A DNA stretch of 49,971 nucleotides from a virus. The stretch is taken from the IMG/VR virus record IMGVR_UViG_3300049734_000243, positions 1-49,971 of that record, one strand, 5' to 3'. This document shows, one piece after another, positions 1 through 49,971 of the stretch. The notes beneath the pieces were generated by a model, which saw only the letters and a program-made list of their open reading frames with translations, ran no database searches and was not told the DNA's origin. Made by a program: the position numbers and the translations under genes. The number at the start of each line of letters is the position of its first letter. The stretch's first letter is position 1.

Positions 1-127
1 TGTCCGTATCCGGCTCACGGCGGCCGAAATCGCCATCGAGAAATGCACCGCACAAGCGGCAATAGTCCTCGTCGTCGGCTAGGCAGTCGTCGCAGTCACA
101 GGACTCCGTACCGTCGCACCGTTCGTC
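1..127. repeat. Left copy of 127-bp terminal direct repeat (contig circularity)
   Basis: Bases 1-127 are identical to 49845-49971. A perfect 127-base overlap at both ends is what a de Bruijn assembler leaves when a contig is circular. The true unit is then 49,844 bp. A minus-strand gene reads straight through the join with an intact frame, which supports a real circle or circular permutation. Confidence 0.93.
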
Positions 128-169
128 AAAATCCTCGGTGCCGTCATTGGGCCGCTCTTCTCGGATCAC
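1..169 (-). CDS. Acidic Cys-rich zinc-ribbon-like protein (N-terminal part; gene crosses the contig join)
   Basis: The N-terminal part of a 93-residue protein starts with GTG at 167-169 and continues across the join into 49732-49844. The start overlaps the stop of the VRR-NUC gene as GTGA and has a GGTGAGG ribosome-binding site. The protein is very acidic. It carries closely spaced cysteine pairs (C-x4-C-x-C-x2-C, then two CxxC knuckles), as expected for one or two zinc ribbons. I do not recognise a named family. Its place between the VRR-NUC gene and the beta-helix gene puts it at the distal end of the early operon. The function is unknown. Confidence 0.75.
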   Translation of the reverse strand, partial: MIREERPNDGTEDFDERCDGTESCDCDDCLADDEDYCRLCGAFLDGDFGRREPDTD

Positions 170-648
170 GACCGCCTCACCGGGTCGAGCCCACCGGTCG
201 CCTCGTCGCGGGTCGCGCGGCCTAACGCGATCACGAGCTCCTCGGCCTCACGGCGCCCGCCGATGTAGTGCTTCGATCCCTCGGCACCGTTGCACAGCTC
301 GTGGAACTCCTGCTGCGCCGGCGACACGACACCGCCCTTCTGCCGCTTCGTCTCCCACCAGAACGAGCAGAGCCCTGGGAACACTACGAAGCCGTCGCCA
401 AGGCCCGGCGTCTGCTTCGACGCCCGCGCCTGGCTGAGCGAGTAGACGCGGCCGCCGAACGCGCGGAAGACCTTCCAGCACTCGAGCTGCTCGATCCGCT
501 CGAGGCGTTCGGCGGTGCCGTCGTCGGGCGGGAGTGCGCCGGCTTTGCGTTCGCGCCAGGCGACGAGCGTCAGACCAGCCGCGTGTGCGGCGCGCAGTTC
601 GTCGATCGGCCCCATGGGCTCGAGCTCGACGATTTTCGGTGTCGTCAT
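166..648 (-). CDS. VRR-NUC domain nuclease
   Basis: A 160-residue PD-(D/E)xK enzyme of the VRR-NUC family, which in phages is often a stand-alone Holliday-junction-type or flap nuclease. The catalytic signature is visible: a Gly-Asp at D85 before a hydrophobic strand, E99-x-K101, then a conserved Gln (Q113) in the helix after a Ser-Pro. The start ATG at 646-648 overlaps the replisome-organiser stop as ATGA. The open frame extends upstream to 759, but that part lies inside the neighbouring gene. Next to the replication gene it probably processes replication or recombination intermediates. Motif order and length fit the family well. Confidence 0.85.
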   Translation of the reverse strand: MTTPKIVELEPMGPIDELRAAHAAGLTLVAWRERKAGALPPDDGTAERLERIEQLECWKVFRAFGGRVYSLSQARASKQTPGLGDGFVVFPGLCSFWWETKRQKGGVVSPAQQEFHELCNGAEGSKHYIGGRREAEELVIALGRATRDEATGGLDPVRRS

Positions 649-1802
649 GTGGTGCGGTCCTCGCTCGTCGGTCCATGTCCTGCGGCCGCTGTCACTGGTG
701 CGCACGCGGCCTCCGCCGCTTCGATCTTCGCCGACGTGAGCGCCATACGAAGTGCCCACGCCTGGATCGGGTCGTTCTCGTGGTTCGGGTAGCGTGACGT
801 CTCACGCGCCTCGAGCTCGGCCCACTCGTCCGGGTGCGCGGCGACCCACTCCTCGGCGTCCGCGAGCCGCTGTCGGCGATCGCGCTCGTCGGCTGCGCGC
901 TCGAGCTTCCCGTTGTATGCCGCCGCCTCAGTGACCGTTCGGCCCTGTGCGTCGGTCTCGACCCATGGCTCCAAGAGCTTGTTCAGCACCCACAGCACCG
1001 AGAGGCCCGGGTCGCGCGGCAGTTGCTTCAGGACATGACGGCAGGCGTGCTCGAGGTGCGCCGGCGATTGTGCGCGTGCGTAGACGCCGCGGCGGATCTT
1101 CGCGCCGTCAGAGTGTTCAAGCGCGTCCCAGAGCTGCTGTTCGCCGTCCGGTCTCCGCGCGGCGGGCATTTTGGCGAGGAGGTCGAGCGCGGCGGGCGGA
1201 AGTCGGCGATCGATCGGGCCGTTCTTCTCGCGTGAGCGAGAAGGTGCGGCGGCGGCGGATTTCCGGAATCCCCCTCCGCTCCCGCTCCCGCTCCTTTCTA
1301 AATCAAAATCAACATCCCGCTCTAAATCAGGACGGAAACGCTCCGGAATCGCTCTGGAATCCCTCTGGAGCGTTTCTGGAGGATTTCCGGAATCGCTCCC
1401 GCCATCGCCCTTAGGTGACTCTGGAGAAATTCTGGAGCCGTTCCCGAAGTCGTCGTTCGGCATCTCCGGCGGGTCCGGCAGCTTCGACGGCGTCGGGTGG
1501 CTGATCTTCTGGTGGCGAAGGAAGTTCACCACGACGCCGTAACGCACACGCGCGACGACATATAGCCGGATGCGCCCGCACGCCTCGAGCTGCGTGAGAT
1601 ACGTCTCGATCTTCTTCGCCGAGATGTCGTCGTCGAGTGGCCAGAGCTGCCCTTTGATCACGCGGGCGTCGGCGAGAAATCGTCCCGAGTCGTCGGCGCA
1701 CACTTCCCAAAGGCCCTTGAATGTCCATCGCACGAGCCTGGGAAGCGTGCACATCACGGGATCCGTCCAGAAATCCGGTTTTGCTGAACGAATGCGAGCC
1801 AT
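645..1802 (-). CDS. Phage replisome organiser / helicase loader (DnaD-like N-terminal domain)
   Basis: A 385-residue protein. The first 110 residues match the phage replisome-organiser N-terminal winged helix: Met-Ala-Arg-Ile-Arg-Ser start, a Lys-Pro-x-Phe-Trp-Thr-Asp motif, a Leu-Trp-x3-Ala-Asp-Asp-x-Gly stretch and an Asn-Phe-x2-His-Gln-Lys-Ile motif. A low-complexity Pro/Ser/Gly linker (about 115-190) follows. The C-terminal half is alpha-helical and could contact the host helicase or its loader. The linker DNA is unusual: short repeats beside an AT-rich patch (see the 1255-1440 entry), as in phages whose origin lies inside the initiator gene. Family assignment is firm; origin binding is inferred. 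Confidence 0.85.
   Translation of the reverse strand: MARIRSAKPDFWTDPVMCTLPRLVRWTFKGLWEVCADDSGRFLADARVIKGQLWPLDDDISAKKIETYLTQLEACGRIRLYVVARVRYGVVVNFLRHQKISHPTPSKLPDPPEMPNDDFGNGSRISPESPKGDGGSDSGNPPETLQRDSRAIPERFRPDLERDVDFDLERSGSGSGGGFRKSAAAAPSRSREKNGPIDRRLPPAALDLLAKMPAARRPDGEQQLWDALEHSDGAKIRRGVYARAQSPAHLEHACRHVLKQLPRDPGLSVLWVLNKLLEPWVETDAQGRTVTEAAAYNGKLERAADERDRRQRLADAEEWVAAHPDEWAELEARETSRYPNHENDPIQAWALRMALTSAKIEAAEAACAPVTAAAGHGPTSEDRTT
1255..1440. other. Candidate replication origin: short repeats plus AT-rich patch inside the initiator gene
   Basis: The plus strand carries TCCGGAATC at 1262, 1342 and 1386, a TCTGGAATC variant at 1353, and several TCTGGAG copies between 1363 and 1437. The patch at about 1297-1330 is AT-rich (runs such as TCTAAATCAAAATCAAC) in an otherwise GC-rich genome. 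Iteron-like repeats beside an AT-rich stretch inside a replication-initiator gene are the lambda O arrangement. No binding data exist, so this is inference. Confidence 0.45.
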
Positions 1803-2396: not shown

Positions 2397-2902
2397 TCCG
2401 AGCGGTCGATTGCCGCTACAGTTGCCGCGACATCGGCCGGCAAATCCCACAGACCGAGAGCGCCCCGACATTGGATCGGCTGCGGAAATCCGAAGGCCGC
2501 GCCGCACCAAAAGGCAAAGCGCCGCTCGTCTGCGACGTCGTAATTCCCGAATGCGAACTCGAGGCGCGCCTGCTCTTCGCTGCTAGACCTAGCCCGAATG
2601 TCATGCAGATAGCCCGGCGTTATCTCCTCGCAGTATTGCAGATCAACGGCGCCGATCAGCGCTGCGCGCGGCAGGTCGCCCGGTTTTGCGATCCCGAGCG
2701 CGCGTAGCGTCGAGGCAAATGGCTCGAGAAAGCACGTGTCGATCGCATCCCGGGGAAATCCTTTCGCGGCGTGAATGTAGAGCCGCCCGCGATGATACGT
2801 CTTCCAATTGCGCGTTTCGACGCGCTTAGGCGGAACGATGGCGTTAGGTGCTCGGCGAACCATGAGCGTTGCCCACGGCTGAGTTAGTGTGATCGATTTC
2901 AC
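2342..2902 (-). CDS. ASCH domain protein
   Basis: A 186-residue protein. The N-terminus has the ASCH (ASC-1 homology) signature: a first strand reading Ser-Ile-Thr-Leu-Thr-Gln-Pro-Trp-Ala, Lys-x-Val-Glu-Thr-Arg-x-Trp at about 27-34, and Tyr-His-Arg-Gly-x-Leu-x-Ile-His-Ala-Ala-Lys at about 36-47. ASCH domains are PUA-like RNA- or nucleotide-binding folds, and some have RNase or base-modified-nucleoside hydrolase activity. The GTG start overlaps the integrase stop as GTGA. The 3' end of the gene covers the right-hand attP arm sites. The exact role in the phage is unknown. Confidence 0.85.
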   Translation of the reverse strand: MKSITLTQPWATLMVRRAPNAIVPPKRVETRNWKTYHRGRLYIHAAKGFPRDAIDTCFLEPFASTLRALGIAKPGDLPRAALIGAVDLQYCEEITPGYLHDIRARSSSEEQARLEFAFGNYDVADERRFAFWCGAAFGFPQPIQCRGALGLWDLPADVAATVAAIDRSESTEKSTSVLAEAGEREA

Positions 2903-4068
2903 TTGCCCGCCTGCGCTTTATGGCGCTCGTCAAGAGTCGGCTTGAATCGCGCGTACGTGCCGTGCACGGTCGCGACCGAACTCCCAAGCTGCTCGGAGAT
3001 CGCTTCGAACTCCACGCCTCGTTTGCGGGCCCGTACGGCCCAGGAATGGCGCGCGTCGCGCAGCGTGTAATCGTCGACCTGCACTGCGGCCGCCGCCTTC
3101 TGATGCTGGTAGTGCGCCTGGTAGCGCGTCACGTTAGGCCAGAGCACGGCGTTCGGCAGTTGCTGACGGAGGAACGCCTCGAGGTACGGACGCGCCCACG
3201 CCTCGACGAGGATCTCGTGCCGGTCGCGCGTGTCCGTCTTCGTGCCCGGCACGTGCGCGAGCCCGCAGTAGCCGTCCCGGTCCTTCGCGTAGAGCTCGAC
3301 GTCGCGGCGCTTCATGCCGAGCGCCGCCGAAACTTCGGCGCCGGTCGCCTTGATGAACGCGGCGAGTGAGCGGAACTCGGGCGGCATCGCGTCGACGATT
3401 CGCTTGTCATTCGCGGCCGTCTCCCAGCGCAGCTTCGGGGTCCCCTTCTTGGGCCGCTTGATGTCATCGATCGGGTTCCCCTCGAGCACGTGCATCTCGC
3501 GCAGGTAGCCGATCAGCGAGAAGAGCGCGTAGAGCAGCTTCCGCTTGTAGCCGACCGAGACCGGCTCGCCGTTCGCCTTGAGGCGCGTCGCGAGCCACTG
3601 CGAGACCCGAGGCGTCGTGAGTTCCGAGCGATAGCGGATGCGGTCGTCGGGGAGCGCGTTGCCGTCCTCGTCCTCGGCGGGCACGTCGGGGTCGGCGACG
3701 ATCGTCGCGAGCTGCGCGCGATACATCTCCGCCGTGCCGGTCTCGCCGAGGTTCGATCGGACCCAGTCCTGCCAGCCGTCGAGGTACGCGGTGAGGTCGA
3801 CGTCCTTGAGTCGTGCGCGGAGCTCGTCGAGCTGGTCGCGCTGGTCGGCGTCGTAGAGCTCCCCGAGCGTGAGCCGTGGCGGCGAGACGGTCACGGCCTC
3901 AAGCAGATCCCAGTCGCGGCGCTTCTTGAGGCGCTTCACGAGCGCGGCGACGTCGTCGGCGACGTCGGGATCCGAGGTCCCGCACGAGCGGATCGGGCCG
4001 ATGCCGCGCGAACGGATCGGGACGCGGATCGAGAAGTGCCCGCCGGGATATTTGCGATATGGCGTCAT
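2899..4068 (-). CDS. int: Tyrosine recombinase integrase with an atypical active site
   Basis: A 389-residue phage-type tyrosine integrase with an N-terminal arm-binding region, a helical core-binding domain (about 90-200) and a catalytic domain (about 215-380). The nucleophile is Y372. K277 sits in a Gly-Thr-Lys turn and R340 in the box II arginine position. Three usual catalytic positions differ. The box I arginine (normally Thr-Gly-x-Arg) is E245, the box II histidine (H-x-x-R) is R337, and the later His/Trp nine residues before the tyrosine is S363. The protein is full length and has a matching attP, so it is probably active and belongs to a divergent subfamily. The ATG follows the excisionase-like gene after TAA with four bases between. 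Confidence 0.9.
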   Translation of the reverse strand: MTPYRKYPGGHFSIRVPIRSRGIGPIRSCGTSDPDVADDVAALVKRLKKRRDWDLLEAVTVSPPRLTLGELYDADQRDQLDELRARLKDVDLTAYLDGWQDWVRSNLGETGTAEMYRAQLATIVADPDVPAEDEDGNALPDDRIRYRSELTTPRVSQWLATRLKANGEPVSVGYKRKLLYALFSLIGYLREMHVLEGNPIDDIKRPKKGTPKLRWETAANDKRIVDAMPPEFRSLAAFIKATGAEVSAALGMKRRDVELYAKDRDGYCGLAHVPGTKTDTRDRHEILVEAWARPYLEAFLRQQLPNAVLWPNVTRYQAHYQHQKAAAAVQVDDYTLRDARHSWAVRARKRGVEFEAISEQLGSSVATVHGTYARFKPTLDERHKAQAGK

Positions 4069-4072
4069 GGCG

Positions 4073-4348
4073 TTAGGCGCTCCGGCGGACGCGTGACGGA
4101 CTCGCCGTGCCAGGCGGCCGCGGCTCGACCACGTCGTCGGTTACCGAGTGCGTCAGGTAGCGGCGCACGTAGGCCAGGAGCTCGGAGCGCAGATAGAGCC
4201 GCGCGCCGGCACGCTTCCCCTCCCCGCGGCCCGGGAGGATTGCAACCGGCACGTTCGAGCGCCTGAGCCATGAGACGGACCGGCGCATGAACTGCGCGGC
4301 CTCCTCCTCGTTCAGGATCTCGTCCGCGACGTTAAGCGGCTGCGTCAT
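4073..4348 (-). CDS. Helix-turn-helix protein, excisionase-like
   Basis: A 91-residue protein with an N-terminal MerR/HTH_17-like DNA-binding domain: Asn-Glu-Glu-Glu-Ala-Ala-x-Phe at about 10-17, a recognition-helix region with Ser-x-Ser-Trp-Leu-Arg-Arg, then a Gly/Arg wing and Leu-x-Leu-Arg-Ser-Glu-Leu. The C-terminal tail is basic and Pro/Ser-rich. It lies directly upstream of int in the same transcript and ends four bases before the int start, which suits an excisionase or directionality factor. The start ATG at 4346-4348 overlaps the preceding gene by 17 bases. The longer open frame to 4546 is a shadow. Confidence 0.7.
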   Translation of the reverse strand: MTQPLNVADEILNEEEAAQFMRRSVSWLRRSNVPVAILPGRGEGKRAGARLYLRSELLAYVRRYLTHSVTDDVVEPRPPGTASPSRVRRSA

Positions 4349-4571: not shown

Positions 4572-5035
4572 GCGCTGGCACCCTCGCGCCATGGCTGGCC
4601 TAACGTCAGCCAGTAGTCTGGACGCGCCTCAGCCTCGGCGCGTGTGATGTCTTCCTGGCCGTAATAGTGCGCGTAGAAGCCGCAGACGTACGGGACGAAC
4701 CAGCGCGAGTGATCCCAGAGGTACGGCCGCTCGGGGATCACCTTCGCCTGTATCGTCAGATGGCAGACTTGGCAGAGCGCGAGCAGGTTCCACCACCGGC
4801 AGTTGGCCTTGTCGCCGTCGAGATGGTGCACGGTGAGGATGCGCAGCTTCCCATCCTGCGGGTGCGTGCAGTGCTCGGTGCACGGCGTGAGCTCGCGATG
4901 TTGCTTCGTGGTGACGATCATCCGGTCGCCGCGCGGATGGCCACACCGGATGCAACGGTGGCCAGCCTGCTGCTTCACGCGCTCGGCGATCGCGGACCAA
5001 TCGGGCGGGTAGACGCCGCGCGTATCGAGTCTCAT
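4568..5035 (-). CDS. HNH endonuclease
   Basis: A 155-residue HNH nuclease. A structural zinc knuckle begins at C28-x2-C31. The His-His-Leu-Asp-Gly-Asp segment (H70, H71) carries the first catalytic histidine, N83 lies in Trp-Trp-Asn-Leu, and C88-x2-C91-His completes the ribbon and metal site. The architecture fits free-standing phage HNH proteins, either homing nucleases or replication/packaging nickases. The start overlaps the stop of the 51-residue zinc protein as ATGA. It lies far from the terminase genes, so a packaging role is less likely. Confidence 0.85.
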   Translation of the reverse strand: MRLDTRGVYPPDWSAIAERVKQQAGHRCIRCGHPRGDRMIVTTKQHRELTPCTEHCTHPQDGKLRILTVHHLDGDKANCRWWNLLALCQVCHLTIQAKVIPERPYLWDHSRWFVPYVCGFYAHYYGQEDITRAEAEARPDYWLTLGQPWREGASA

Positions 5036-6836: not shown

Positions 6837-6991
6837 CGGGCCAACTCCGGGTGCAGGGTGGAACAGTGAGAAGCGGTCGGGCCCGATTCGACGGGCCGTC
6901 TCTACGCTGGTTAGCCGTTAGGCGTCAGGACGGGGCGCACCCGCCTGCCCGTGTGCGTAGCGTGCTGCCGATTGCACCACGACCGCGGGGT
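6837..6991. other. 155-base intergenic stretch with a hairpin
   Basis: No gene is supported here. A GGCCCG/CGGGCC inverted repeat with a six-base ATTCGA loop lies near 6880-6897 on the plus strand. It is not followed by a T-run in either direction, so it is not a clear intrinsic terminator. A GCCGTTAGGC copy of the genome-wide heptamer is also present. Confidence 0.4.
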
Positions 6992-7327
6992 TCATAGCGA
7001 GAGATGCAGCTGCTGGCGCTCGAGCCGTGCGATCGCGCGATCGAGGTAGACGCGGGCATTCTGCAGGTTCGTCAGTTCATCGCCATCCGATTTCTCCAGG
7101 AGAAATCGGATGGCATTGCCCGTGTTGAAGTCGAGGCCGAACGCGTCGATCACGTCGAGCGCGCTGAGTGGCTCCGGTGAAACCGCTGCGTGGTCGGCCT
7201 CATGCGCCTTCTCGTTGCTCTTCCCTCGACAGCTGACACAGACGCGCTGACGCGGACCGGTCGGGGTGAACGGCTTGTCGCACTCGTCGCACTCGCGCGC
7301 GCCGTAGGTTCTCGTGGCCATGGTCAC
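6992..7327 (-). CDS. Zinc ribbon fused to a DUF3310-like domain
   Basis: A 111-residue protein in two parts. Residues 12-35 form a CxxC...CxxC ribbon (Cys-Asp-Glu-Cys then Cys-Val-Ser-Cys). The C-terminal half reads like DUF3310: Ile-Asp-Ala-Phe-Gly-Leu-Asp-Phe, Gly-Asn-Ala-Ile-Arg-Phe-Leu, then Asn-Leu-Gln-Asn-Ala-x2-Tyr-Leu-Asp. DUF3310 proteins are common in phage nucleotide-metabolism or replication clusters, with function unsettled. The start is GTG at 7325-7327 (GTGA overlap) or ATG two codons later. Confidence 0.72.
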   Translation of the reverse strand: MTMATRTYGARECDECDKPFTPTGPRQRVCVSCRGKSNEKAHEADHAAVSPEPLSALDVIDAFGLDFNTGNAIRFLLEKSDGDELTNLQNARVYLDRAIARLERQQLHLSL

Positions 7328-8358
7328 GGCTCCGCGATGGCGTTGCGTCCGCGCTTCGGCTGGTCGTTGAGCTCGAGCGCGTCCTGAATGCGCCCCGGCT
7401 TCGGCACGCGGTGCGAGAGCGAGCCGGCCGGCGTGCCGCGCTGCGGCTCCTCGACCAGGTCGCGATCGTCCTGGAAATCGTCGGCCTTCGCTGGCTCTGC
7501 CGCGGATGCCGCCTCGGCAGCTGGCGACGGCTCGTCGAGGATCTCGCCGCCGGTGACGATGGGCTGGTCCTCCGGGTACATGAACCCGCTCGCCTGGTTG
7601 GCCATGGCCGGGCCCTGTGTGTAGTGCGCCGCGAGTCGCGGGTGCCGGCTCTCGAGGAGCTTGGCCGCCTCTCGCTCATCCGCGATGCGGGCGCTGACCT
7701 CGGCGGCGCGATCGTCGAGCTCCTCCTCGCGCCACTTGAGATGCGGCAGTTGGCTGGCGATGAACCGCATGCACCGACGCACAGCGCGCGTCTCGGCCGT
7801 CTCGACCGGGAACGAGTCACCGACGGGATCCGACTTCCGTGTGCCGCCGCCGCACCACTTCGCGCCGGTGAACTCGAGGTCCATGCCTTTGAGCTTCACG
7901 CGGAAGATCACGGCCGCGGCAGCAGCGTCGGGAATGTTGAGCGCGATCCGCTCGCCCTCGCGGCGCCGGAGCTCCGCACGTGCCTTCGCCGCGTCGTCGT
8001 CCGTGCCCTTGGCGAGCTTCTCGAGCCGCGCGTCGTAGTTCACGTGGTCGAGCTTCGCGTACTCGATCACGCCGTCGTCGAGCATCTCGGACAGCCGGCG
8101 CAGGTAGTAGCTGGCGTTCCGGTAGATGTTGCCGCCGAGGACGTTGATCTCGGTGGGGTCGAGCAGATTCTGCCGGCAGTACATGGCGACGGCGCGCTGC
8201 ATCTCGTTCGAGAGGCCTTTGCCCCAGTTCATCTCGGAGATTTTTGCAGCGACCAGGTGCAGTTTCTTCCGCTCGTCGAGCGACTCCTGCACGGCGGCCG
8301 GCATGCTCTCTTTCGCGCGTGCGGTCTCGCTCGGCTTGATGGTGGCGGGTACGGTCAT
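7324..8358 (-). CDS. Candidate RecT-like single-strand annealing protein
   Basis: A 344-residue protein. After a charged N-terminus there is a helical region with Met-Gln-Arg-Ala-Val-Ala then Gln-Asn-Leu-Leu-Asp-Pro-Thr-Glu, and a Val-Leu-Gly-Gly-Asn-Ile-Tyr strand, which resembles the RecT 'GL-P ... Y.N' layout. Later comes Glu-Thr-Ala-Glu-Thr-Arg-Ala-Val-Arg-Arg (about 187-196), as seen in annealing proteins. The last 110 residues are acidic and disordered, like an SSB-type tail. No partner exonuclease of the RecE/Exo type is visible unless the VRR-NUC enzyme serves. It may instead be an unrelated early protein of conserved phage type. Confidence 0.5.
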   Translation of the reverse strand: MTVPATIKPSETARAKESMPAAVQESLDERKKLHLVAAKISEMNWGKGLSNEMQRAVAMYCRQNLLDPTEINVLGGNIYRNASYYLRRLSEMLDDGVIEYAKLDHVNYDARLEKLAKGTDDDAAKARAELRRREGERIALNIPDAAAAAVIFRVKLKGMDLEFTGAKWCGGGTRKSDPVGDSFPVETAETRAVRRCMRFIASQLPHLKWREEELDDRAAEVSARIADEREAAKLLESRHPRLAAHYTQGPAMANQASGFMYPEDQPIVTGGEILDEPSPAAEAASAAEPAKADDFQDDRDLVEEPQRGTPAGSLSHRVPKPGRIQDALELNDQPKRGRNAIAEP

Positions 8359-10256: not shown

Positions 10257-10268
10257 CGTTAGGGGATT

Positions 10269-10489: not shown

Positions 10490-10995
10490 TACGACGCCCT
10501 CGGCTTGAGCCCGAAGAACCGGCGCGCGCCCGCCGACTCGCCGCGCTTCTGCGCCAGCCGCTTGCCTAACGCACGCGTGAGGAGCGAGCTCCGGCGCGTG
10601 TGCGCCGCCTGTGCGTCGTACGCGGCCCGGAGGTCTTCCTCGCGGTCCGACGTGGCGGCGACAAGCACGAGGTAGTCGGCCCTGCCCTGCGCCCTCGTCT
10701 CCGCGACGTTCTCCGCGGCCACCGCACCCACGCCGTCGATGCCACGCCACGACTCCACGTCGGCGCGCAGCTCGTCGATCGCCTGGAGTACGAGGTCGAG
10801 GTCCGCGCCGCGCTGCACCATTCGCCAGTAGTCGCAGCGGTGCTTCACGAAGGTCGCCGGGCGTTTCTGGGCCCGGACGTCGGCCACGTGCTGTGGCTTT
10901 CGCGGCATGTGGTCGAACGCCTGGAGGAAGAGTTCGTGAAGCCGGCCGGTCACGACGGCGACCATATCGGGGCTCACGTTCGGGTGGATGCGCAT
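10489..10995 (-). CDS. Helical protein of unknown function (early operon)
   Basis: A 168-residue, largely helical protein. ATG at 10993-10995 gives the compact product. The same frame is open further upstream, and a GTG near 11123 would add about 43 residues of low-complexity sequence. The body has a Cys-Asp-Tyr-Trp motif and a Leu/Ala-rich helix pair, and the end is basic. No family recognised. The 146 bases up to the Cro-like gene (10996-11141) show no other gene. Confidence 0.6.
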   Translation of the reverse strand: MRIHPNVSPDMVAVVTGRLHELFLQAFDHMPRKPQHVADVRAQKRPATFVKHRCDYWRMVQRGADLDLVLQAIDELRADVESWRGIDGVGAVAAENVAETRAQGRADYLVLVAATSDREEDLRAAYDAQAAHTRRSSLLTRALGKRLAQKRGESAGARRFFGLKPRAS

Positions 10996-11141
10996 AGCTG
11001 GGAAACCGATCGTTAGGGGTAACTGCTGAGCCTGCGGTGGCAGCCGAGGCGGGTCGTGCACGTGCTCAGTGAGAGAGTGGCCGGGTGCGGAGAGGGGGGA
11101 AGCCTTCCGCTGCGCCACGGTGACGCCCCGGCCGTCAAGCG

Positions 11142-11375
11142 TTAGGCCGCGTGCGCCGAGAGGTGCTCGTTGATGAAGGCATCGACCTTCTCGAGGAGCG
11201 GAGGCGACTCGCGAACCCCCCGGAGGACCTGATACAGGTGACCGGTGGTGACGCCGTTGTCGGCGCACCACTGCTCTACCGTCGTCCTGGCGAGTGCGAT
11301 CGCAGCCTTGAACCCGGCGCGGCGCTGTTCACCGTTCCGCTCGGCTGGCTTGCCACTGACTGAAGATCGGGACAT
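11142..11375 (-). CDS. Cro-like helix-turn-helix regulator
   Basis: A 77-residue protein, first gene of the leftward operon. The HTH is visible at about 34-53: Val-Glu-Gln-Trp-Cys-Ala-Asp-Asn-Gly-Val then Thr-Gly-His-Leu-Tyr-Gln-Val-Leu. A short helical C-terminus follows. It is transcribed from the promoter at 11418-11445, across two palindromic operators, with AAAGGA about ten bases before the ATG. Position, size and divergence from the CI-like gene make it the likely Cro counterpart. Confidence 0.75.
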   Translation of the reverse strand: MSRSSVSGKPAERNGEQRRAGFKAAIALARTTVEQWCADNGVTTGHLYQVLRGVRESPPLLEKVDAFINEHLSAHAA

Positions 11376-16502: not shown

Positions 16503-16507
16503 ACTCG

Positions 16508-22818: not shown

Positions 22819-22823
22819 CGTCG

Positions 22824-35873: not shown

Positions 35874-36950
35874 TTACGGGTTGGAAATGGTCGGATCGGT
35901 GTACGACGCGTTGTTGAACTGCAGGATCGCGCCGTTCGTGCGGGTCAGGACGCCGAGACCGAAATACGACTCGTAGAAGTCCACCCGCAGCGGGTGATCC
36001 TCGAACTCCGCCGCGCGCGTCAGGTCGAGCGATCCCGCCGGGTCTTCGCGGAGGCCTAACGTCTTTTGCGGCGAGCCCGCATCGAAGACGAGCAGGTAGT
36101 TGGCGATCATCCACGGCTTGACCCACACCTCGGCCGCGCCGTAGATGCCGATCGCGCGGTTGTTCTGGACCGTGATGTCCAGTCGCTGCGCCGGCTGGTT
36201 CGCCTGCGTGCCGAGCATGAGCCGCGGGTCCACGTAGGCGACGAAGCCGCTCAGCGCGCGGAACGCCGTCTCGTTCGCCTGCGCGATGTAGATCCGGAGC
36301 GACGCGCCGTGACCATGCTCGACGACGGTGGAGATGGCGGCGTCGACTGCGGCCGTCGTGAGGGTCGCGTTCCCGAGGTAGTGCGTGTGCGTCGAGCCGT
36401 CGAATGTCTCGCCGTTCGGCCCGTTCGGGATCACCGCGCCGTCGGCGTTGACGAGCCGCTTCACGGCCAAATCGACGTTATCGACCAGATGGTCGCGGAA
36501 CGTGTAGTTCGCGCTCAGGAAGAGCGCTTTCTTGATCTCCGCCGATACGCGCTGCCGGTGCCCGGCCTGCGCACCCTGGACGGCCCGCGCGAAGTCGGCG
36601 GCGCTCCGCCGCTTCTCCCACTCCTTCGTCCAGCCGACGTTGTACTGGTACTTCTTGAACGGGAACGCGACCTGCGCGACTGCGGCCGCGCGCTGCGTCG
36701 GTGCCCGGCCGTACTCGTCGACTTCCGTCATCGACCCCGCGGCACTGCCGCCGTACGCGCCGATGCGCTCGGCAGTCCCGGCGCGCGTGCTCGCCAGCGA
36801 CGAGAGCTGGTCGCGCATGATCGTGTTGTACGCGGCGACGTCGGCGTCGAGCGCGGCGACGATCTCCTGAAACGACAGGTTCCCGTTGGTGATCGGGTTG
36901 GTCGACGCCAACAGGAAACTGATATCATGGGTTCCGGTTCTCCCGGCCAT
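35874..36950 (-). CDS. Major capsid protein
   Basis: A 358-residue protein, HK97-fold-like in layout: an N-terminal helical arm, a P-domain with long helix (Lys-Lys-Ala-Leu-Phe-Leu-Ser-Ala-Asn-Tyr), an A-domain beta-sheet and a C-terminal Arg/Leu-rich strand. It lies in the head module, between scaffold/decoration genes upstream and connector genes downstream. A strong GGGGAGG ribosome-binding site precedes the ATG, as expected for the most abundant virion protein. Confidence 0.85.
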   Translation of the reverse strand: MAGRTGTHDISFLLASTNPITNGNLSFQEIVAALDADVAAYNTIMRDQLSSLASTRAGTAERIGAYGGSAAGSMTEVDEYGRAPTQRAAAVAQVAFPFKKYQYNVGWTKEWEKRRSAADFARAVQGAQAGHRQRVSAEIKKALFLSANYTFRDHLVDNVDLAVKRLVNADGAVIPNGPNGETFDGSTHTHYLGNATLTTAAVDAAISTVVEHGHGASLRIYIAQANETAFRALSGFVAYVDPRLMLGTQANQPAQRLDITVQNNRAIGIYGAAEVWVKPWMIANYLLVFDAGSPQKTLGLREDPAGSLDLTRAAEFEDHPLRVDFYESYFGLGVLTRTNGAILQFNNASYTDPTISNP

Positions 36951-37372: not shown

Positions 37373-37458
37373 TGCGGCAATCCCTTCGGAAAAAGGTTTC
37401 TCGGTTTTCCCAGGGGTGACGACCGCTCGGCGCCGGGGCGCCTAACGAACCGCGCCCC

Positions 37459-39047: not shown

Positions 39048-39228
39048 CCGGTTCGGGCTTCGCCTCGAGCAGTCCTTTCGCGTCCGGCGGCGCGTGCTGG
39101 TTGAACGACGCGACGGCGGCGTCGATGTCTGCGAGTGTGATTTCGGCCTCGGCGTCGAGCTCGGCGTCCGTCGGGCGCCGGCGCTGCAGCATCGGGTCGT
39201 TAGGTGGATTGTTCGGTGGGTTCGTCAT
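39040..39228 (-). CDS. Small Pro-rich protein of unknown function
   Basis: A 62-residue protein with an Asn/Pro-rich start and an acidic helix (Glu-Ala-Glu-Ile-Thr-Leu-Ala-Asp-Ile-Asp). It overlaps the 88-residue gene by 29 bases. No family recognised. Confidence 0.55.
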   Translation of the reverse strand: MTNPPNNPPNDPMLQRRRPTDAELDAEAEITLADIDAAVASFNQHAPPDAKGLLEAKPEPDA

Positions 39229-41243: not shown

Positions 41244-41720
41244 CTAGACTTCAAACTCCATGTAGCCGTCTGCGTTCGGCGTGCCGGTCGACGCCGTGAG
41301 CCGGAGGCCGAGCGCCTCATAGGCCGATGAGCTACTCAGGAGAGACTGGGCCTCGCGGCCTAACGGCGATTGGATCACCAGCGGGCCAGGCCCGGCGAAC
41401 CGCCATGCTTTGAGGCGCGATAACACCGTGGGCTCCGCCGAATACTCGATGCCGGCGGTGACCTGCGCCGGGTTGGTCGCGCCGGCGGCCACAAACCCGC
41501 GAATTTGCGTCGGCGTCGGCGAGCTCCCGACCGTGCCAGCGCCCGCGCCGGTCGACACCACCAGCTCCACGAGGCAGGTCGCCGTCGAATCAATCGAGAC
41601 GCCCAACTCCACAAGCGCGGCAATGTGTTCGGCCGCCCCTGCAATCAACAGGATGGCGGTTTTCGCCGACGTGGAGAGCGCGAACGCATCGAAGTTGACC
41701 ACGTAGCCCTTGGAAGCCAT
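41244..41720 (-). CDS. Structural protein of unknown function
   Basis: A 158-residue beta-rich protein ending Tyr-Met-Glu-Phe-Glu-Val, with a Ser/Thr-rich centre. Surrounding genes are virion genes, so it is probably structural. No named family. Confidence 0.6.
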   Translation of the reverse strand: MASKGYVVNFDAFALSTSAKTAILLIAGAAEHIAALVELGVSIDSTATCLVELVVSTGAGAGTVGSSPTPTQIRGFVAAGATNPAQVTAGIEYSAEPTVLSRLKAWRFAGPGPLVIQSPLGREAQSLLSSSSAYEALGLRLTASTGTPNADGYMEFEV

Positions 41721-41732: not shown

Positions 41733-42998
41733 TCAGTAAAGTGCGGACCGTTGGCGGGCCTGCGAGATGATAACAGGCTTCGCGGATGCGGGAACGAATT
41801 CCGTCAACGTCTCCGCGAACACGAGCCACGAGCTATACCCGCTCGCGCCACCGTAGCGCAGCGTGCGGCTCGTGCCCGCGACCGAGTTGTTGACCACTGG
41901 CCGATCCTGATAGATGCGGAACCGGAGTCGCTGGTTCTGCGTGACAGCGAGGCTCGGCCCTGTCAGGTAGTGCAGCGCGGTCGCTGAGTCCGTCGGGCAC
42001 GACGTGTAGCTTTGTGCCCATACAGTGGGGCTAGTGCCATCGTTGTTCACGACCGCGATCTCCAACGTCAGGATGTCATGCGGGCTGGCCCCCACCTGCC
42101 CCTCTAGCCGGGCCGAGGGCTGCGCCAGAACTACCTGCACGACTCCACCTAACGTGGACGCATCGAGCGGCGCCGAGAACCACTCGATGTCCGTTCCACC
42201 AGACGTGCCAGTCCACTGATCACCGGGATACGTGGGCGACGCGACCGTCGTGTGGACCGCCGTCGCCGAGGCCGAGCCATCACTCAGTGCCAGCTTCTTC
42301 GCCGTGATGCTGTTGGGGTTGATGTCGCTCGCGTCGTCTGTGAGATACACCGACGATCCAATCGGATCGCTCGCGATGAACGAGATCGTCTCGGTGAACA
42401 CCACGTTGGAGTCGGCCGTGTTCGCGTTCGAGCCGTTGTACTGGATTGTGCCAGTAAACCCGCTCGCCATGTTCCCGCCGCCGTCGTCGATACCAGCGCA
42501 GAACATGATGCGGTCGCCCTTCTTGCACGCCGTCGACGTGGGCGTCGCAGTCGGGGATTGGCGAGTAAGGCCTGTTCCCACTTCGGAGGCCCCGGTCGCT
42601 TCCGCAATCAGTGTCGCCGCGCCTGTGTGGTCGATTCGGTAGACGGCTCCCTTGAGCGCGATGTTCGCGTTCATGGAGGACTCCGACCCGCACAGGTTGA
42701 ACGTCACCGTGCTGGAGATCGTCACATCAGCGGAAAGCGGTGCGCTGAGCCAGGTATCCGCCGCCCGCTTGCCTGCTGTCGGTCCAGCGACGGTTGAAAC
42801 AGTGACCCCGACGCCAGTTCCGGTCCCGATGTCCGGAGACAGCGTTAGGAGCTGCACCGCAGGAACCTCGTTCACCACATCTGCGCCGAACGTCGGCCGA
42901 CGAGCGGTCGTGCGGAACGACAGGTACTCCCCGATAGACGGGTTGTCGGCCCAGAACGCCGGAGGGTTCGTCGACCGGGCGTAGAGAGTCGTCGCCAT
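41733..42998 (-). CDS. Structural protein of unknown function (beta-rich)
   Basis: A 421-residue beta-rich protein with two related halves: each contains Thr-x-Trp-x-Ser-Ala-Pro-Leu or Trp-Phe-Ser-Ala-Pro-Leu, then Val-Thr-Ile/Val-Val-Gln-Val. The halves look like repeated carbohydrate-binding-module-type beta-sandwiches (about 60-210 and 250-405). It overlaps the upstream gene as TAATG. It may be a head fibre or decoration; unknown. Confidence 0.65.
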   Translation of the reverse strand: MATTLYARSTNPPAFWADNPSIGEYLSFRTTARRPTFGADVVNEVPAVQLLTLSPDIGTGTGVGVTVSTVAGPTAGKRAADTWLSAPLSADVTISSTVTFNLCGSESSMNANIALKGAVYRIDHTGAATLIAEATGASEVGTGLTRQSPTATPTSTACKKGDRIMFCAGIDDGGGNMASGFTGTIQYNGSNANTADSNVVFTETISFIASDPIGSSVYLTDDASDINPNSITAKKLALSDGSASATAVHTTVASPTYPGDQWTGTSGGTDIEWFSAPLDASTLGGVVQVVLAQPSARLEGQVGASPHDILTLEIAVVNNDGTSPTVWAQSYTSCPTDSATALHYLTGPSLAVTQNQRLRFRIYQDRPVVNNSVAGTSRTLRYGGASGYSSWLVFAETLTEFVPASAKPVIISQARQRSALY

Positions 42999-43596: not shown

Positions 43597-43696
43597 GGTC
43601 TGTCCTTTTGTTGCTGGGAGAACTGTCCTGCGGCGATCGAGGTGTTGTCGAAGTCCAGGTCCGCGCCCGATGTGCTGGGGTCGTCCTGGTCCCTCG

Positions 43697-44125
43697 TTAG
43701 GTGAGGGTGAGAATCGTACCCGGGTCCGAGTTGTTCGGCTTCCACGTGAACGTCTCGCCCGATTGCAGCGTGATCGCGGAACCGTAATCCCACCACGCGA
43801 TCAATGGATCGAGCGGCGATGATGGCGTGTCGTTGAAGAGCACGACGTACTGGAACGGCCCGACCGCGCCGGAAGCCGTGATGATGATCTGGTTGCCGGC
43901 GAGCGTGTACGTACCGCCCGACTGCGCCGACGTGGTCACCGTCACGGCCTGGGGCCCCGTGTAGCCGTTGCCCGTCGCGATTTCCGCCAAGTCCGTTTTG
44001 ACGACGTCGGCAGACGCGGATGGCGCCGCGTTGGTCAGGTAAATCTTGAGTGCGTCAGCTCCGAGATTGTGGACCTTTTCGGCCAAGTGCTCGACAAACG
44101 CCTCGAACTTTTGATAGGTCGCCAT
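43697..44125 (-). CDS. Virion protein, conserved phage type
   Basis: A 142-residue protein of a type common in phages: Phe-Val-Glu-x-Leu-Ala-Glu-Lys-Val-His-Asn-Leu-Gly, then Leu-Thr-Asn-x-Ala-Pro, Gly-Asn-Gly-Tyr-Thr, Gly-Pro-Phe-Gln-Tyr-Val-Val-Leu and Trp-Trp-Asp-Tyr-Gly-Ser. The family is abundant in virions but its exact position is not known to me. It lies three bases before the portal gene stop/start region. Strong by pattern. Confidence 0.7.
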   Translation of the reverse strand: MATYQKFEAFVEHLAEKVHNLGADALKIYLTNAAPSASADVVKTDLAEIATGNGYTGPQAVTVTTSAQSGGTYTLAGNQIIITASGAVGPFQYVVLFNDTPSSPLDPLIAWWDYGSAITLQSGETFTWKPNNSDPGTILTLT

Positions 44126-44128: not shown

Positions 44129-46231
44129 CTATTCCGGATTGGAGGTGTTAGGCGGGTTGGTGCCGTTGCTGGTCGTCGGCGTAACGTTCACGGTCCAGGT
44201 CCGTCCGTTTGGCTCGGTGACGCTGACGTTCTTGCCGGCCGGCGCGGGCTGCGGCATCGCGATCGGCAGGACGATCGGCGCTGGTGACGGCTCCGGTTTC
44301 GCGGCGAGCGCGGCGACGAGGGCGGATACCTGCGCCGTGAGCCCGGCGACCTCCGCGCGCAGCTCCTCGATCGACGGATCCGGCGAGGGCTGCGACGGCG
44401 GCGAGCCGGAAGGGGCCGAAGGGGGCTGCGGCCGTTGGGCGTTAGGCGCGGTGTCGGGCGTCCGCGTTCCCGCCGGTATCGGGCCTTGCGGCCCGCCTTC
44501 CGTCTCAGGCTGTCCAGTCCTATCCGCTCCGCTCTCTGCTCCGCTCGTAACCACTGCAGCGTCCGGGTTGGTCTGGTCGACGCTGCCCGTCTCGGGGCCG
44601 CCGACCAGGAGCTGCTGCTGCTCGTCGGTGAAGCCAACCACGGACGCCACTCCTTCGGCGGTGTAGCCGGCCGCGGAGAGCTTGGACGCGCTCTCCGACT
44701 GCTCGGGTACCCGGGCGGAGGCGAGCGACGTCTCGAGCTCGTCGCGGATCGCCGCCTCGTCCTGGCCCTCCGGCCAGACACCGTCATCCTTGGCCGCCGA
44801 CTCGACCATGTGCGCCTCGAGCGTGGCGCTCCTGGCGCCGAGCTTCAGCATGCGCTCGATCGTGCGATCGATCTTCTCGACCGTCGGCGCCAGTTCGAAT
44901 TCCGTCGGCCACACCACGAACCCGCTCGGGCTCGTCGCCCCGGCACGGAGCTCCGCGAAGTAGATCAGCGTGTTCTCGAACGACTCGCGCCGGGCGGCAA
45001 GCGACGCGAGGAGCGGCGACGTCGCCTCACCGAAGCCGACCTCTTTCGATCGGCCTGACGAGTCAGGCTCGCTCGTCAGCTGGCGCACCATGATTTCGTG
45101 CGCTTCCTCGATCGTCGAGCGGATGATCGTCGAGAACACATCGGCGGCGACCGCGCCCGCCGAGCTGTCGTAGATGCTCGGGATGAGCCACTTCCCGTCC
45201 GGCGTCGCGCTCCCGATGACTGGCACCAGGATCGAGTTCGCCTCGTGGTGCTCGATCATCAGGTTGAACGCGTCTTTTTCCGCGCCGAGGATGTACTTGA
45301 CCGACTTGGCGGCGTCGCGCGCGTCCCAGTTGCGCTCTGATATGCGGTTCATCAGCGAGGTGGCGATCTGGCCGAGCTCCATCGTCAGCGAGCCAGACAT
45401 CGCCGGCCGTTCGGTCGTCCCCTGCGACGACTCGGCCACGAGCGCCGCGACGGGGATCTGTCCGCCGGTCCGCGCCCATGTGCCGCGCCCGTTCTCAACG
45501 GGCGTCTTGTCGCCGTGGAAGAGCCACCAGCCGCCACCCGAGAACTGGTCGCCGAGGCCGACGTAGCCCTGCCGGACGAGCAGGTAGTAGCCGTCCTCGG
45601 TGTTGCTCGGCTCCCAGAGCTGGCCGCCCTTCCGGATCCGCGGGCGGATGACCATCCAGTCGAGACGGCCGTCGGTCGACTCCCACATGGGTACTGCGAG
45701 CGGCGAGTACTCGACCAGGAAGGGTCGGAAGCCGGCTCGGATGTCCGTGCCGCGGACCGGGCCGTTCGCGTTAGGCCGCCGTGGCATTTCGACCATCACC
45801 CACCGGTGGCCGGTCGCGATCGCGCGCTCCTGCACGCCCGTCGTCCACGCGCGGAACTGCGTGCCGTCCTTGCCGACGCCGTCGCAGTTGTAGTGGAACG
45901 ATTCCGCGACGGTCTCGTTGTCCGCGGCGATGGCGTCACGCGGCCGGACCTCGCCGAGCGTGCCGTAGTTCGGCATCGGTGCCACGCGCGCCAGGTGCCC
46001 GGCGAGGATCTTCGCGTGGATCAGCGGGAAGTTGAGGTACGTGGCCTGCGCCTTCCGCGACCGGTAGGACGTCTCTTGCTCGTTGGTGAAGCGCTCCAGC
46101 TCGACCTCGGTGGTGCCGTCGCCGAGCACGGCGTCGCGGCCGTAGAACCGGCGCTCCTCGCGCTGCCAAGCGTCGCGATTCGTCGTGTAGATCTCGTGCT
46201 CGGCGCCGAGGATCTGCTGGATATCAGGCAT
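44129..46231 (-). CDS. Portal protein
   Basis: A 700-residue protein. The N-terminal 460 residues match the portal fold seen in siphoviruses (Tyr-Leu-Asn-Phe-Pro-Leu, Trp-Val-Met-Val-Glu-Met, Ser-Leu-Thr-Met-Glu-Leu-Gly-Gln-Ile-Ala, Phe-Gly-Glu-Ala-Thr-Ser). A helical region and a Pro/Gly/Ser/Thr-rich disordered C-terminal tail (about 530-700) follow. Longer than a minimal portal because of the tail. It overlaps terminase by eight bases (ATGCCTGA). Confidence 0.85.
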   Translation of the reverse strand: MPDIQQILGAEHEIYTTNRDAWQREERRFYGRDAVLGDGTTEVELERFTNEQETSYRSRKAQATYLNFPLIHAKILAGHLARVAPMPNYGTLGEVRPRDAIAADNETVAESFHYNCDGVGKDGTQFRAWTTGVQERAIATGHRWVMVEMPRRPNANGPVRGTDIRAGFRPFLVEYSPLAVPMWESTDGRLDWMVIRPRIRKGGQLWEPSNTEDGYYLLVRQGYVGLGDQFSGGGWWLFHGDKTPVENGRGTWARTGGQIPVAALVAESSQGTTERPAMSGSLTMELGQIATSLMNRISERNWDARDAAKSVKYILGAEKDAFNLMIEHHEANSILVPVIGSATPDGKWLIPSIYDSSAGAVAADVFSTIIRSTIEEAHEIMVRQLTSEPDSSGRSKEVGFGEATSPLLASLAARRESFENTLIYFAELRAGATSPSGFVVWPTEFELAPTVEKIDRTIERMLKLGARSATLEAHMVESAAKDDGVWPEGQDEAAIRDELETSLASARVPEQSESASKLSAAGYTAEGVASVVGFTDEQQQLLVGGPETGSVDQTNPDAAVVTSGAESGADRTGQPETEGGPQGPIPAGTRTPDTAPNAQRPQPPSAPSGSPPSQPSPDPSIEELRAEVAGLTAQVSALVAALAAKPEPSPAPIVLPIAMPQPAPAGKNVSVTEPNGRTWTVNVTPTTSNGTNPPNTSNPE

Positions 46232-47879
46232 AGGCTTTCCGCCAGTGCTTCGGGTCGAGGTCGCGTTCGGCCGCGCCCGCGAGTCGGTTGTAGCCGAGGC
46301 TCGTCGCGTCGACCGGATCGTCGGGCACGCCTTTCGTCGGGAACGCGTGCAGCAGCCGCAGGTAGGTCGAATTCCAGACCGGGTTCCTGACGAGCTTCAC
46401 CAGTCCCACTTTCGCCTGCGAGGCGATCGGGCCGGCGCGCACGATCTTGTCGCCACTCGCCGGCACGAACTCGACGCGGAAGCCGGCGAGCAGCTTCACC
46501 GTGGCGACCTTGTCGGACACGCCGGCCGCGCCCGGCTCCTGCTCGAAGACCTGCGGCACCTCGGGCCCGTCGAGACGCGCCGCCTCGAGGATCCGCTGAT
46601 CGCGGTCACCCGGCGCCCACTGCCCGAAGACGCAGTCCTCGATCAGCACGGTCCCGTCCTCGAGGTGCGCCTGCCTAACGCCCCACGTCCAGTCGCCGGC
46701 GCCGGCGGTGGCCGCCTTGTCCCACGCGCGGGCGCGGCGTTTGACCTTCGGCAACGGATCGCCCGGCTCGACGAAGCCGAACCAGCCCGAGTTGAACACG
46801 AGACCCGCGGCCGCGCGGATCCGCCAGTTGCCGCCGCGGTCACCGCCTAAGAGCCGCATCTGGTCGACGAGCGACATCGCGCGGATCCGCGCCTCGTACC
46901 CCGGGTCGAGCGCGACGCCGATCTTGTTGTCCTGGAGCCGCGCGAGCACGAACGTCACCGAGCGCGCGAACTGGCCGTGCCCGGCGTGGCGCTCGTCGAG
47001 CTCCGCCATCGCGAGGTCGGAGTACGCACGGAACGTCGCGCCGTGCGCGTCCGGCGGCGCCACGACCGACGACCACACGACCTGGTCGCCGACGCGGATG
47101 AAGAAGCGCACGGAGCCGGACCGCTCGGGGATCGCGTAGCCCGACTCCTGGTCGATCCACCACGCGAGGAACGTCGCGAGGAAGCTGTCGGGGTCCGGGT
47201 TGCAGGCCGCAAGGACGTACGGCCTAACGCCGCACGTCGAGCGATTCCGGGACAGCATGTAGAAGAACTGCTGCTCCGTGAACTCCTCGAGCTGGTCGAA
47301 GATGAGCGCGCAGATCTGCGCGGACTTCCACGCCAGGACGTCGGACTCGTACTGCAGCCCGGCCATCTTCCCGCGGGCGCCCGAGGGGAAAAACCAGTCG
47401 AGCGTCGTCTCGCGCGGCTCGGCGCCGAGCTGCGGGTACATCTTCCGCGCCTCGTCCCACATGCCGCCGGGGTTCCGGATCTCGGGCGTCGTGCGGCGAA
47501 ACGCCACGAAGTTGAACCCGGGGTTGTCGACGTGATCGAGCGGCTGGCGGGTGAGCGCCCAGGTCTTCCCGCCGTACACCGATCCGCCGTAGATCCGGAT
47601 GTCGGCCTCGCTCGCGAGGAACGTCGCCTGCGGGCCGGGCTGCGGCGTCAGGTTCCGGCGTGCGGATTCCGCGAGCTCCGTTGGCGACTGCTCGCCGGTG
47701 ACGGTCGGGCGGAACGACGCGACCGCGCGCGCGATCGCGCGCTTCGGCGCCGACTCGCCGCGGCCGAACAGGTCGCCCAGAGTCAGGCCGGCCACGAGCA
47801 GCGCGAGCCCGAGTGCACTAGACGCGGAGCGCAAGCCAGCCCTCTTCGATCTTCGCGCAGACGGCCGGGTCGGTGACAT
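46224..47879 (-). CDS. terL: Terminase large subunit
   Basis: A 551-residue ATPase/nuclease. Walker A Gly-Gly-Ser-Val-Tyr-Gly-Gly-Lys-Thr lies at about 98-106, and Walker B Ala-Leu-Ile-Phe-Asp-Gln-Leu-Glu-Glu at about 191-199. The RNase H-like nuclease region starts near Arg-Ala-Trp-Asp-Lys (D387). It cuts and pumps DNA into the head through the portal. ATG at 47877-47879 has a GTGAGG site but overlaps the small subunit by 62 bases; a GTG at 47795 is the alternative with a shorter N-terminus. The first 45 residues show low conservation. Confidence 0.92.
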   Translation of the reverse strand: MSPTRPSARRSKRAGLRSASSALGLALLVAGLTLGDLFGRGESAPKRAIARAVASFRPTVTGEQSPTELAESARRNLTPQPGPQATFLASEADIRIYGGSVYGGKTWALTRQPLDHVDNPGFNFVAFRRTTPEIRNPGGMWDEARKMYPQLGAEPRETTLDWFFPSGARGKMAGLQYESDVLAWKSAQICALIFDQLEEFTEQQFFYMLSRNRSTCGVRPYVLAACNPDPDSFLATFLAWWIDQESGYAIPERSGSVRFFIRVGDQVVWSSVVAPPDAHGATFRAYSDLAMAELDERHAGHGQFARSVTFVLARLQDNKIGVALDPGYEARIRAMSLVDQMRLLGGDRGGNWRIRAAAGLVFNSGWFGFVEPGDPLPKVKRRARAWDKAATAGAGDWTWGVRQAHLEDGTVLIEDCVFGQWAPGDRDQRILEAARLDGPEVPQVFEQEPGAAGVSDKVATVKLLAGFRVEFVPASGDKIVRAGPIASQAKVGLVKLVRNPVWNSTYLRLLHAFPTKGVPDDPVDATSLGYNRLAGAAERDLDPKHWRKAYA

Positions 47880-48372: not shown

Positions 48373-48408
48373 GTCCGTCCGCGGCAGCCGTGACCATGGC
48401 ACCTAACG

Positions 48409-48719: not shown

Positions 48720-48730
48720 GGGAGTCGGGG

Positions 48731-49735
48731 TCAGGTGGGGTTCGTGGTGGACGTGTGTTCGCCAGCGCCCTGCGCGCGCTCGTACGTGCAGCCGGTCAGT
48801 GTGAGCGCCGGCCGGACGCCGGGATTCCAAGCCACGGGCGCGACGCGATCGGCGCCGAACGCGCCGAACCGCGCGCCGACGACGGTGCACGCCTGTTCGC
48901 CGATGCCGGCGAGCTGGATCCGCGGCGGTCGCTGGGCGCCGTCGCCGAAGGATCCGCCGATCACGTTCAGTGGGCCGGCGTGTCGGAGCAGGACCATTGC
49001 GCCGTCCGCGTGCAGCTGGTCGGCCGCGTAGCGCACACCGGCGAGCGTGACCGACTGCGCGTCCGTCGCCGGCCCGGCCGAGACGAGCAGCCGGCCACAC
49101 GCCTCGACGCCGGCGCCCTGGATCACGACCGGATCACCGACGCGCGCGAGCTCGAAGGCGACGTCACACACGGCGATCGTGCCGCCGAGCCACTGGAACG
49201 ACGACTCCGCGCGGACGCCCTGCGCACAGGATTCGGCCCGGCAGTGCGTGAAGAGGTGCTCCTTCGACTGCTGGCCCTCGAACGCCCACGCGAAGCCGCA
49301 CTGGTAGACCGAGACGGACTCGAAGCGCGCGTGCTCGTTGTTGGCGTCGATCGTGTCGCTCCAGAGGAACCCGTACAACGCCGCCTGCCCGTTCCCGAAG
49401 ACGCGCACGTCGCGGAACTGATGCATCGTCGACGGCACGGTGCCTGGCTCCTTACGAGTGCGCTCGGCGCGGAACACTGCCTCGCACGGCGTGTCGCACC
49501 GGACATCGACGCGCGACCAGCTTGACTCGCGGCAGTTCTGGAGCGAGAACACCGGCACGTTCGCGTTGCCGCGCCACACGAATTCGAGCCGCCGGCCAGG
49601 CGTGACCGTCCGCGGCCTTGGCGGCCCGTCGAGATCTCGAAGCACAACGGTGTCGGTGAGGATGACGCCGCCGTTCGGGAACGGCCGTGCGTTCCGGATC
49701 CTGTCCGCGACGTCAGACGCCGTGAGCGCGATCAC
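48731..49735 (-). CDS. Right-handed beta-helix protein encoded in the early operon
   Basis: A 334-residue protein. A first segment (about 1-50) gives the Val-Ala-Asp-Arg-Ile and Gly-Gly-Val-Ile-Leu pattern of a beta-helix cap. The remainder shows the coil pattern of a right-handed beta-helix (Val-x-Val-x-Gly, Asn/Cys-rich turns) to about 320. No signal peptide and no visible catalytic triad. Tailspike or capsule-binding proteins have this fold, but such genes normally lie with tail genes; here it lies between the acidic zinc protein and terS. GTG start overlaps the upstream stop as GTGA. Confidence 0.7.
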   Translation of the reverse strand: MIALTASDVADRIRNARPFPNGGVILTDTVVLRDLDGPPRPRTVTPGRRLEFVWRGNANVPVFSLQNCRESSWSRVDVRCDTPCEAVFRAERTRKEPGTVPSTMHQFRDVRVFGNGQAALYGFLWSDTIDANNEHARFESVSVYQCGFAWAFEGQQSKEHLFTHCRAESCAQGVRAESSFQWLGGTIAVCDVAFELARVGDPVVIQGAGVEACGRLLVSAGPATDAQSVTLAGVRYAADQLHADGAMVLLRHAGPLNVIGGSFGDGAQRPPRIQLAGIGEQACTVVGARFGAFGADRVAPVAWNPGVRPALTLTGCTYERAQGAGEHTSTTNPT

Positions 49736-49971
49736 GTGACGACGTCCTCTTCGGTGAAGTCGTGCTCGGCGTCGTCGCCATCGTCTGGAAACTCGTCAGG
49801 CACATACGGCCCGTCGTCGAAATCCTCAGCGCACTCGGTGCAGATGTCCGTATCCGGCTCACGGCGGCCGAAATCGCCATCGAGAAATGCACCGCACAAG
49901 CGGCAATAGTCCTCGTCGTCGGCTAGGCAGTCGTCGCAGTCACAGGACTCCGTACCGTCGCACCGTTCGTC
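49732..49971 (-). CDS. Acidic Cys-rich zinc-ribbon-like protein (C-terminal part; gene crosses the contig join)
   Basis: C-terminal part of the same gene as 1-169. The last 127 bases repeat 1-127. The frame ends at TGA 49732-49734, overlapping the beta-helix start as GTGA. This part has Cys-Thr-Glu-Cys then a run of Asp/Glu to the end (Thr-Glu-Glu-Asp-Val-Val-Thr). Confidence 0.75.
   Translation of the reverse strand, partial: DERCDGTESCDCDDCLADDEDYCRLCGAFLDGDFGRREPDTDICTECAEDFDDGPYVPDEFPDDGDDAEHDFTEEDVVT
49845..49971. repeat. Right copy of 127-bp terminal direct repeat
   Basis: Identical to 1-127. See the left copy; it marks the overlap of a circular contig rather than a biological long terminal repeat, though a real terminal redundancy in the virion cannot be excluded from sequence. 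Confidence 0.93.

Follow-up and report, generated by a model that had tools for sequence, protein, structure and literature searches.

Virus record IMGVR_UViG_3300049734_000243 (49,971 bases, analysed over its whole length and referred to here as the window) contains one heptamer, CCTAACG or its reverse complement CGTTAGG, so often that the question arises what maintains it and whether it belongs to the phage or to its host. The excess is very probably imposed by the host, and the motif may be part of a self-recognition signal of the DNA-uptake type in a subset of Gemmatimonadota. The original prediction, made from the sequence alone, had put the number of copies at about 37 with a 16 to 21 split of orientations, and the exact count is indeed 37 (16 CCTAACG on the plus strand and 21 CGTTAGG on the minus strand), although some of its positions were displaced by at most 1-8 bases (2842 not 2835, 6916 not 6918, 30874 not 30882). 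A third-order Markov model, the check it had suggested for the over-representation, gives an expectation of 4.4 copies, and the heptamer ranks first of all 7-mers (z 14.6). Twenty-four of the copies lengthen to the 8-mer CGTTAGGC, for which 1.6 are expected. The phage motif has a strict GTTAGG core, preceded by C and followed by a pyrimidine, mostly C, while the flanks are not conserved.

The genes of the window contain 23 copies, compared with 2.2 after synonymous-codon shuffling of the predicted genes (14 in sense orientation against 0.57, and 9 in antisense against 1.63); thus, neither codon nor codon-pair use explains the excess. The motif holds 12 of the 21 TTA codons and 8 of the 20 TAA stops of the window. 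The codon clustering anticipated earlier was therefore found for TTA, and also for TAA stops, but not for AGG or CTA. Together, the Markov excess, the TTA codons in the motif and the codon shuffles support the proposal that selection acts on the DNA sequence itself.

Gemmatimonadota had been guessed as the host phylum, and the enrichment was found in genomes of this phylum. These were gathered by a 16S primer pattern, and 298 were counted. The majority avoid the heptamer, with 20-60 copies per 4 Mb, several-fold below the reversed control, whereas about 19 of the 298 are strongly enriched, equally on both strands and up to 0.94 copies per kb. Totals reach 4539 in 7.5 Mb in G107, which is Gemmatirosa kalamazoonensis, 4285 in 6.0 Mb in G259 and 4057 in 4.3 Mb in G218, followed by G262 (2516), G116 (2449) and G177 (2361) and then down to a few hundred, G205 being borderline; most of the enriched genomes are fragmented. 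The motif heads the 7- or 8-mers of G218, G107, G259, G262 and G116, the first 7-mer being GCCTAAC or CCTAACG. All replicons are affected in Gemmatirosa: the chromosome has 0.6 copies per kb, the megaplasmids (chromids) are similar (8-16 heptamers in each 20 kb), and 14 GTTAGGC are present in a plasmid unit of 15.0 kb, i.e. the full host density. The plasmid record (L133, G107:C1) is 20.9 kb long, made up of a 14,997-bp unit and a terminal duplication of about 5 kb, and probably represents a 15.0-kb circle whose assembly overlaps itself.

In an rpoB tree, the enriched genomes form at least two groups separated by motif-free relatives, the motif having been gained or lost patchily across the tree. 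Within rpoB itself, several enriched genomes spell the motif at the same Leu-Gly codons, which read CTC/CTG GGC or TTG GGC in the relatives. No replacement iterated motif of comparable strength was found in the non-enriched genomes. In G218 (loci L128-L132 and L241-L260), GTTGGGC is a second, variant form in excess (260 against 76), and the motif lengthens to TSCGTTAGGC, which might represent a dialect.

The placement of the copies is likewise informative. In 880 kb sampled from Gemmatirosa, 284 of 294 TTA codons lie within GTTAGG, and G180, a near relative, has no TTA among 17,747 codons; thus, TTA is kept almost solely to spell the motif. Strand polarity is absent along the Gemmatirosa chromosome (242 against 255 copies; 141/145 and 101/110 in the two halves), and the orientations of successive pairs are balanced in G218. 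Copies repel one another at short range: close pairs of 150 bp or less number 44 in G218, against 94 expected if copies were placed at random, without regard to coding constraints. The close-pair deficit alone differed from random; the coefficient of variation of the overall spacing did not. Motif density per kb is 1.0 in intergenic, 1.9 in convergent, 0.6 in coding and 0.5 in divergent regions.

Relatives of the phage were sought in scans with the terminase, capsid, portal, early protein, endonuclease and integrase as queries, which yielded one motif-rich near relative, the viral contig G009 (33.7 kb). It shares with the window the early protein (57% identical), the endonuclease-like gene and a few small genes, and none of the structural proteins of the window was found in it; with 25 copies against 3.3 expected, the heptamer is its top 7-mer too. 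Distant relatives matched by terminase or capsid have no copies or few. A scan with the G009 terminase gave one motif-rich fragment among 18 other loci; the 4-kb fragment L283, with a terminase 64% identical to that of G009, has 4 copies, and relatives at 47-52% identity have 0-1. Of 395 Gemmatimonadota genomes, 3 encode relatives of the early protein, and all three are non-enriched. Contig 71 of the non-enriched genome G328 encodes an early-protein relative, a related capsid protein, a portal and a window-like head protein, and has 1 heptamer in 40 kb, with 0 of 7 TTA codons within the motif. The enrichment that was to be looked for in related phages is thus present in G009 and missing from the capsid-related phage of G328. 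Motif density in the phage tracks the host; the motif does not originate in the phage lineage, given that a kindred phage from a motif-free genome is without it. Elsewhere in G328 (C14, 37766-37840), five CCTAACG at exactly 17-bp spacing make up a short tandem array that has nothing to do with the dispersed motif. Another phage contig, L006 (IMGVR_UViG_3300036884_000038), has iterated words of its own, ACAGCGTC and GCTGTCCC, at about 16-18 copies per 20 kb against 1 expected.

Several explanations other than uptake have to be weighed. With a stop codon inside it, the heptamer can fall at the end of a gene, which might suggest chance, codon use, gene-junction use or an assembly artefact, but this is refuted by the codon shuffles and by independent replication in G009 and many genomes, leaving it a negligible probability. 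A site specific to the phage, such as a repressor stoperator or a packaging or replication signal, would have a parallel in cluster A mycobacteriophages, which carry genome-wide sites for the phage repressor. As the main cause it is refuted by host chromosomes equally dense in the motif and by the phage of G328, which has related capsid, portal and early genes and lacks the motif; such a site is extremely improbable. A Chi-type recombination hotspot, one of the functions proposed in the original prediction, would protect DNA from a host recombination nuclease. GTTAGGC resembles Chi sites in its over-representation and length (7-8 bp being typical), and its enrichment could shield the phage DNA; yet it has no polarity, and RecBCD/AddAB was undetected in most carriers, so that Chi is very unlikely. 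In profile searches of 18 enriched, partly incomplete genomes, RecC was found in just 2, and the AddB/RecB-type nuclease domain was absent in 12, weak in 5 and represented by a clear pair in 1. Integron attC core boxes (GTTRRRY) bound by the integron integrase are also a very unlikely cause, even though integron arrays of this phylum have precisely GTTAGGC as their attC core, the integrase is common across the phylum, and GTTGGGC, also enriched in G218, fits GTTRRRY. Real attC sites in Gemmatimonadota have paired boxes 88-140 nt apart with complementary arms, and each array fragment holds 5-9 of these hairpins; integron cassettes in regular attC arrays with GTTAGGC cores were seen in L271 (G160:C5), L272 (G138:C2) and L273 (G273:C14). 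The genome-wide sites of phage and hosts, in contrast, have no hairpin partner, and the one head-to-head pair in the whole phage, a chance pair, lacks inner arms. This bears out the earlier doubt that the letters of the core box are the same but the attC geometry is not there. Moreover, the integrase was not detected above the cut-off in G155, G187, G145 and G176, four enriched genomes of clade 2, and is present in the non-enriched G180, G189, G101, G217 and G021; enrichment thus neither requires the integrase nor follows from its presence.

The main rival is an intracellular self-marking motif comparable to cyanobacterial HIP1, a possibility that we hold only tentatively. A host DNA-binding, methylating or repair factor would read GTTAGGC on any DNA in the cell, and chromosome, plasmid and phage would gain the motif by selection or biased repair. 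All replicons, including the 15-kb plasmid and the phages, are at host density, as expected of such a factor, and distant clades have an identical core. HIP1, which is also highly iterated, patchy among lineages and built on a single core common to distant relatives, shows that a motif can be iterated without serving uptake, and a methylation/mismatch-repair model, with a factor acting on all cell DNA, has been put forward for it (PMC4390886). However, HIP1 is palindromic and linked with two methyltransferases, whereas GTTAGGC is non-palindromic and has no linked methyltransferase, and a purely mutational process would not yield the close-pair deficit or the low divergent-intergenic density. 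No candidate factor was found (methyltransferases were not surveyed), and no recognised methyltransferase is among the window proteins scanned.

Uptake fits best among the functions originally suggested, and GTTAGGC as a DNA uptake-type self-recognition signal of a Gemmatimonadota subset is a reading to which we give an even chance. The heptamer would then form the centre of (Y)GTTAGGC(R), a signal that the host imposes and that is iterated throughout its genome. DNA fragments with a copy of the motif may be favoured by a receptor at the cell surface, belonging to the type IV pilus/ComEC machinery for competence; conspecific DNA would recombine in, and copies, in either orientation, would build up until each fragment has about one. 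They would settle where the coding sequence allows, mainly in TTA-GGC Leu-Gly, CCT-AAC Pro-Asn and stop-codon contexts. A temperate phage, like a plasmid, might gather the signal during residence in motif-bearing hosts. The uptake signal sequences (USS) of Pasteurellaceae are likewise short non-palindromic motifs at about 0.7 per kb, in both orientations and mostly genic (PMC6776037, PMC2346458), and temperate phages of that family accumulate the host's USS up to host density, about 750 per Mb, so that the USS profile of a phage identifies its host family (PMC6776037). On this likeness and this precedent, GTTAGGC is therefore proposed as an uptake-type signal. It differs from USS in sequence, phylum and its 7-9 bp core, in that uptake is inferred, and in the full density of the small plasmid. 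With the DNA uptake sequences (DUS) of Neisseriaceae it shares genome-wide iteration, strand neutrality and patchiness among relatives; its core is shorter. ComEC was detected in 16 of 18 enriched genomes.

A number of observations weigh against uptake. ComEC is just as frequent in non-enriched genomes, and both the uptake preference for GTTAGGC and its receptor are proposals. The plasmid and the phages are at full host density, unlike horizontally acquired regions in Neisseria, which are DUS-poor (PMC2397512). The same core is found in distant clades with variation in the flanks only, whereas the known DUS have diverged into dialects. Of the near-matches, TGTTAGGC and GTTGGGC are enriched and most others are not, and a freely decaying signal would differ. 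Finally, no excess of inverted pairs, of the hairpin or terminator kind present among DUS, was found. A further, improbable variant of the uptake reading is that the integron core box itself serves as the uptake signal, with uptake and cassette capture sharing one address tag. Competence preferring GTTAGGC would favour the import of integron cassettes, with two copies each, and tagged phages and plasmids would share the route.

The window begins with a 127-bp sequence that recurs as a direct terminal repeat at 49845-49971, and the genome is therefore probably complete, circular or terminally redundant. Nearly all genes are on the minus strand. Judging from its tyrosine integrase, together with terminase, portal and capsid, the window is a temperate tailed phage (siphovirus). 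The early protein might, as a guess, be a RecT-like annealing protein. All copies of the heptamer and the genes referred to above are listed in Table 1.

Table 1. Heptamer copies and predicted genes of the window (heptamers on the plus strand read CCTAACG, those on the minus strand CGTTAGG).
Feature	Position	Strand	Remark
heptamer	221..227	+	aligned position kept in phage G009, flanks differ
heptamer	2842..2848	-	
heptamer	3132..3138	-	inside integrase gene
heptamer	4071..4077	-	with TAA stop
heptamer	4599..4605	+	TTA codon on coding strand
heptamer	6916..6922	-	intergenic
heptamer	10257..10263	-	intergenic
heptamer	10565..10571	+	TTA codon
heptamer	11011..11017	-	intergenic
heptamer	11140..11146	-	with TAA stop
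heptamer	15120..15126	+	TTA codon
heptamer	16506..16512	-	with TAA stop
heptamer	16839..16845	+	TTA codon
heptamer	17167..17173	-	at gene junction
heptamer	18188..18194	-	
heptamer	21180..21186	-	Pro-Asn
heptamer	21490..21496	-	
heptamer	22822..22828	-	with TAA stop
heptamer	23653..23659	+	TTA codon
heptamer	27625..27631	+	TTA codon, probable tape measure gene
heptamer	30874..30880	+	TTA codon, probable tape measure gene
heptamer	32344..32350	-	with TAA stop
heptamer	32746..32752	+	in the only head-to-head pair, without attC inner arms
heptamer	32828..32834	-	intergenic
heptamer	34406..34412	-	
heptamer	36055..36061	+	TTA codon, major capsid
heptamer	37441..37447	+	intergenic
heptamer	39198..39204	-	with TAA stop
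heptamer	41359..41365	+	TTA codon
heptamer	42148..42154	+	TTA codon
heptamer	42843..42849	-	
heptamer	43695..43701	-	with TAA stop
heptamer	44440..44446	-	portal gene, Pro-Asn
heptamer	45769..45775	-	portal gene, Pro-Asn
heptamer	46674..46680	+	terminase gene
heptamer	47223..47229	+	terminase gene
heptamer	48402..48408	+	intergenic
endonuclease-like early gene	166..648	-	also in G009 (68%)
tyrosine integrase	2899..4068	-	PHROG 1, E 1.3e-19
early protein	7324..8358	-	no family match; common to second motif-rich phage G009 and (pro)phages in Gemmatimonadota
tape measure, probable	26286-31244		1652 aa; judged from length and position
major capsid protein	35874..36950	-	47% identical relative in motif-poor genome G328
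portal	44129..46231	-	
terminase large subunit	46224..47834	-	

To our knowledge, self-recognition signals for uptake are established in two proteobacterial families only, and literature searches turned up no paper on uptake sequences in Gemmatimonadota. If the proposal is true, GTTAGGC would be a third, unrelated case, in an abundant but hardly tractable soil phylum, and the alternatives of selfish drive and selection for safe sex would become testable in independent lineages, where gain and loss are sharp. The motif also acts as a tag by which metagenomic phages can be assigned to motif-bearing hosts, and the addition of GTTAGGC to constructs might render these bacteria transformable.

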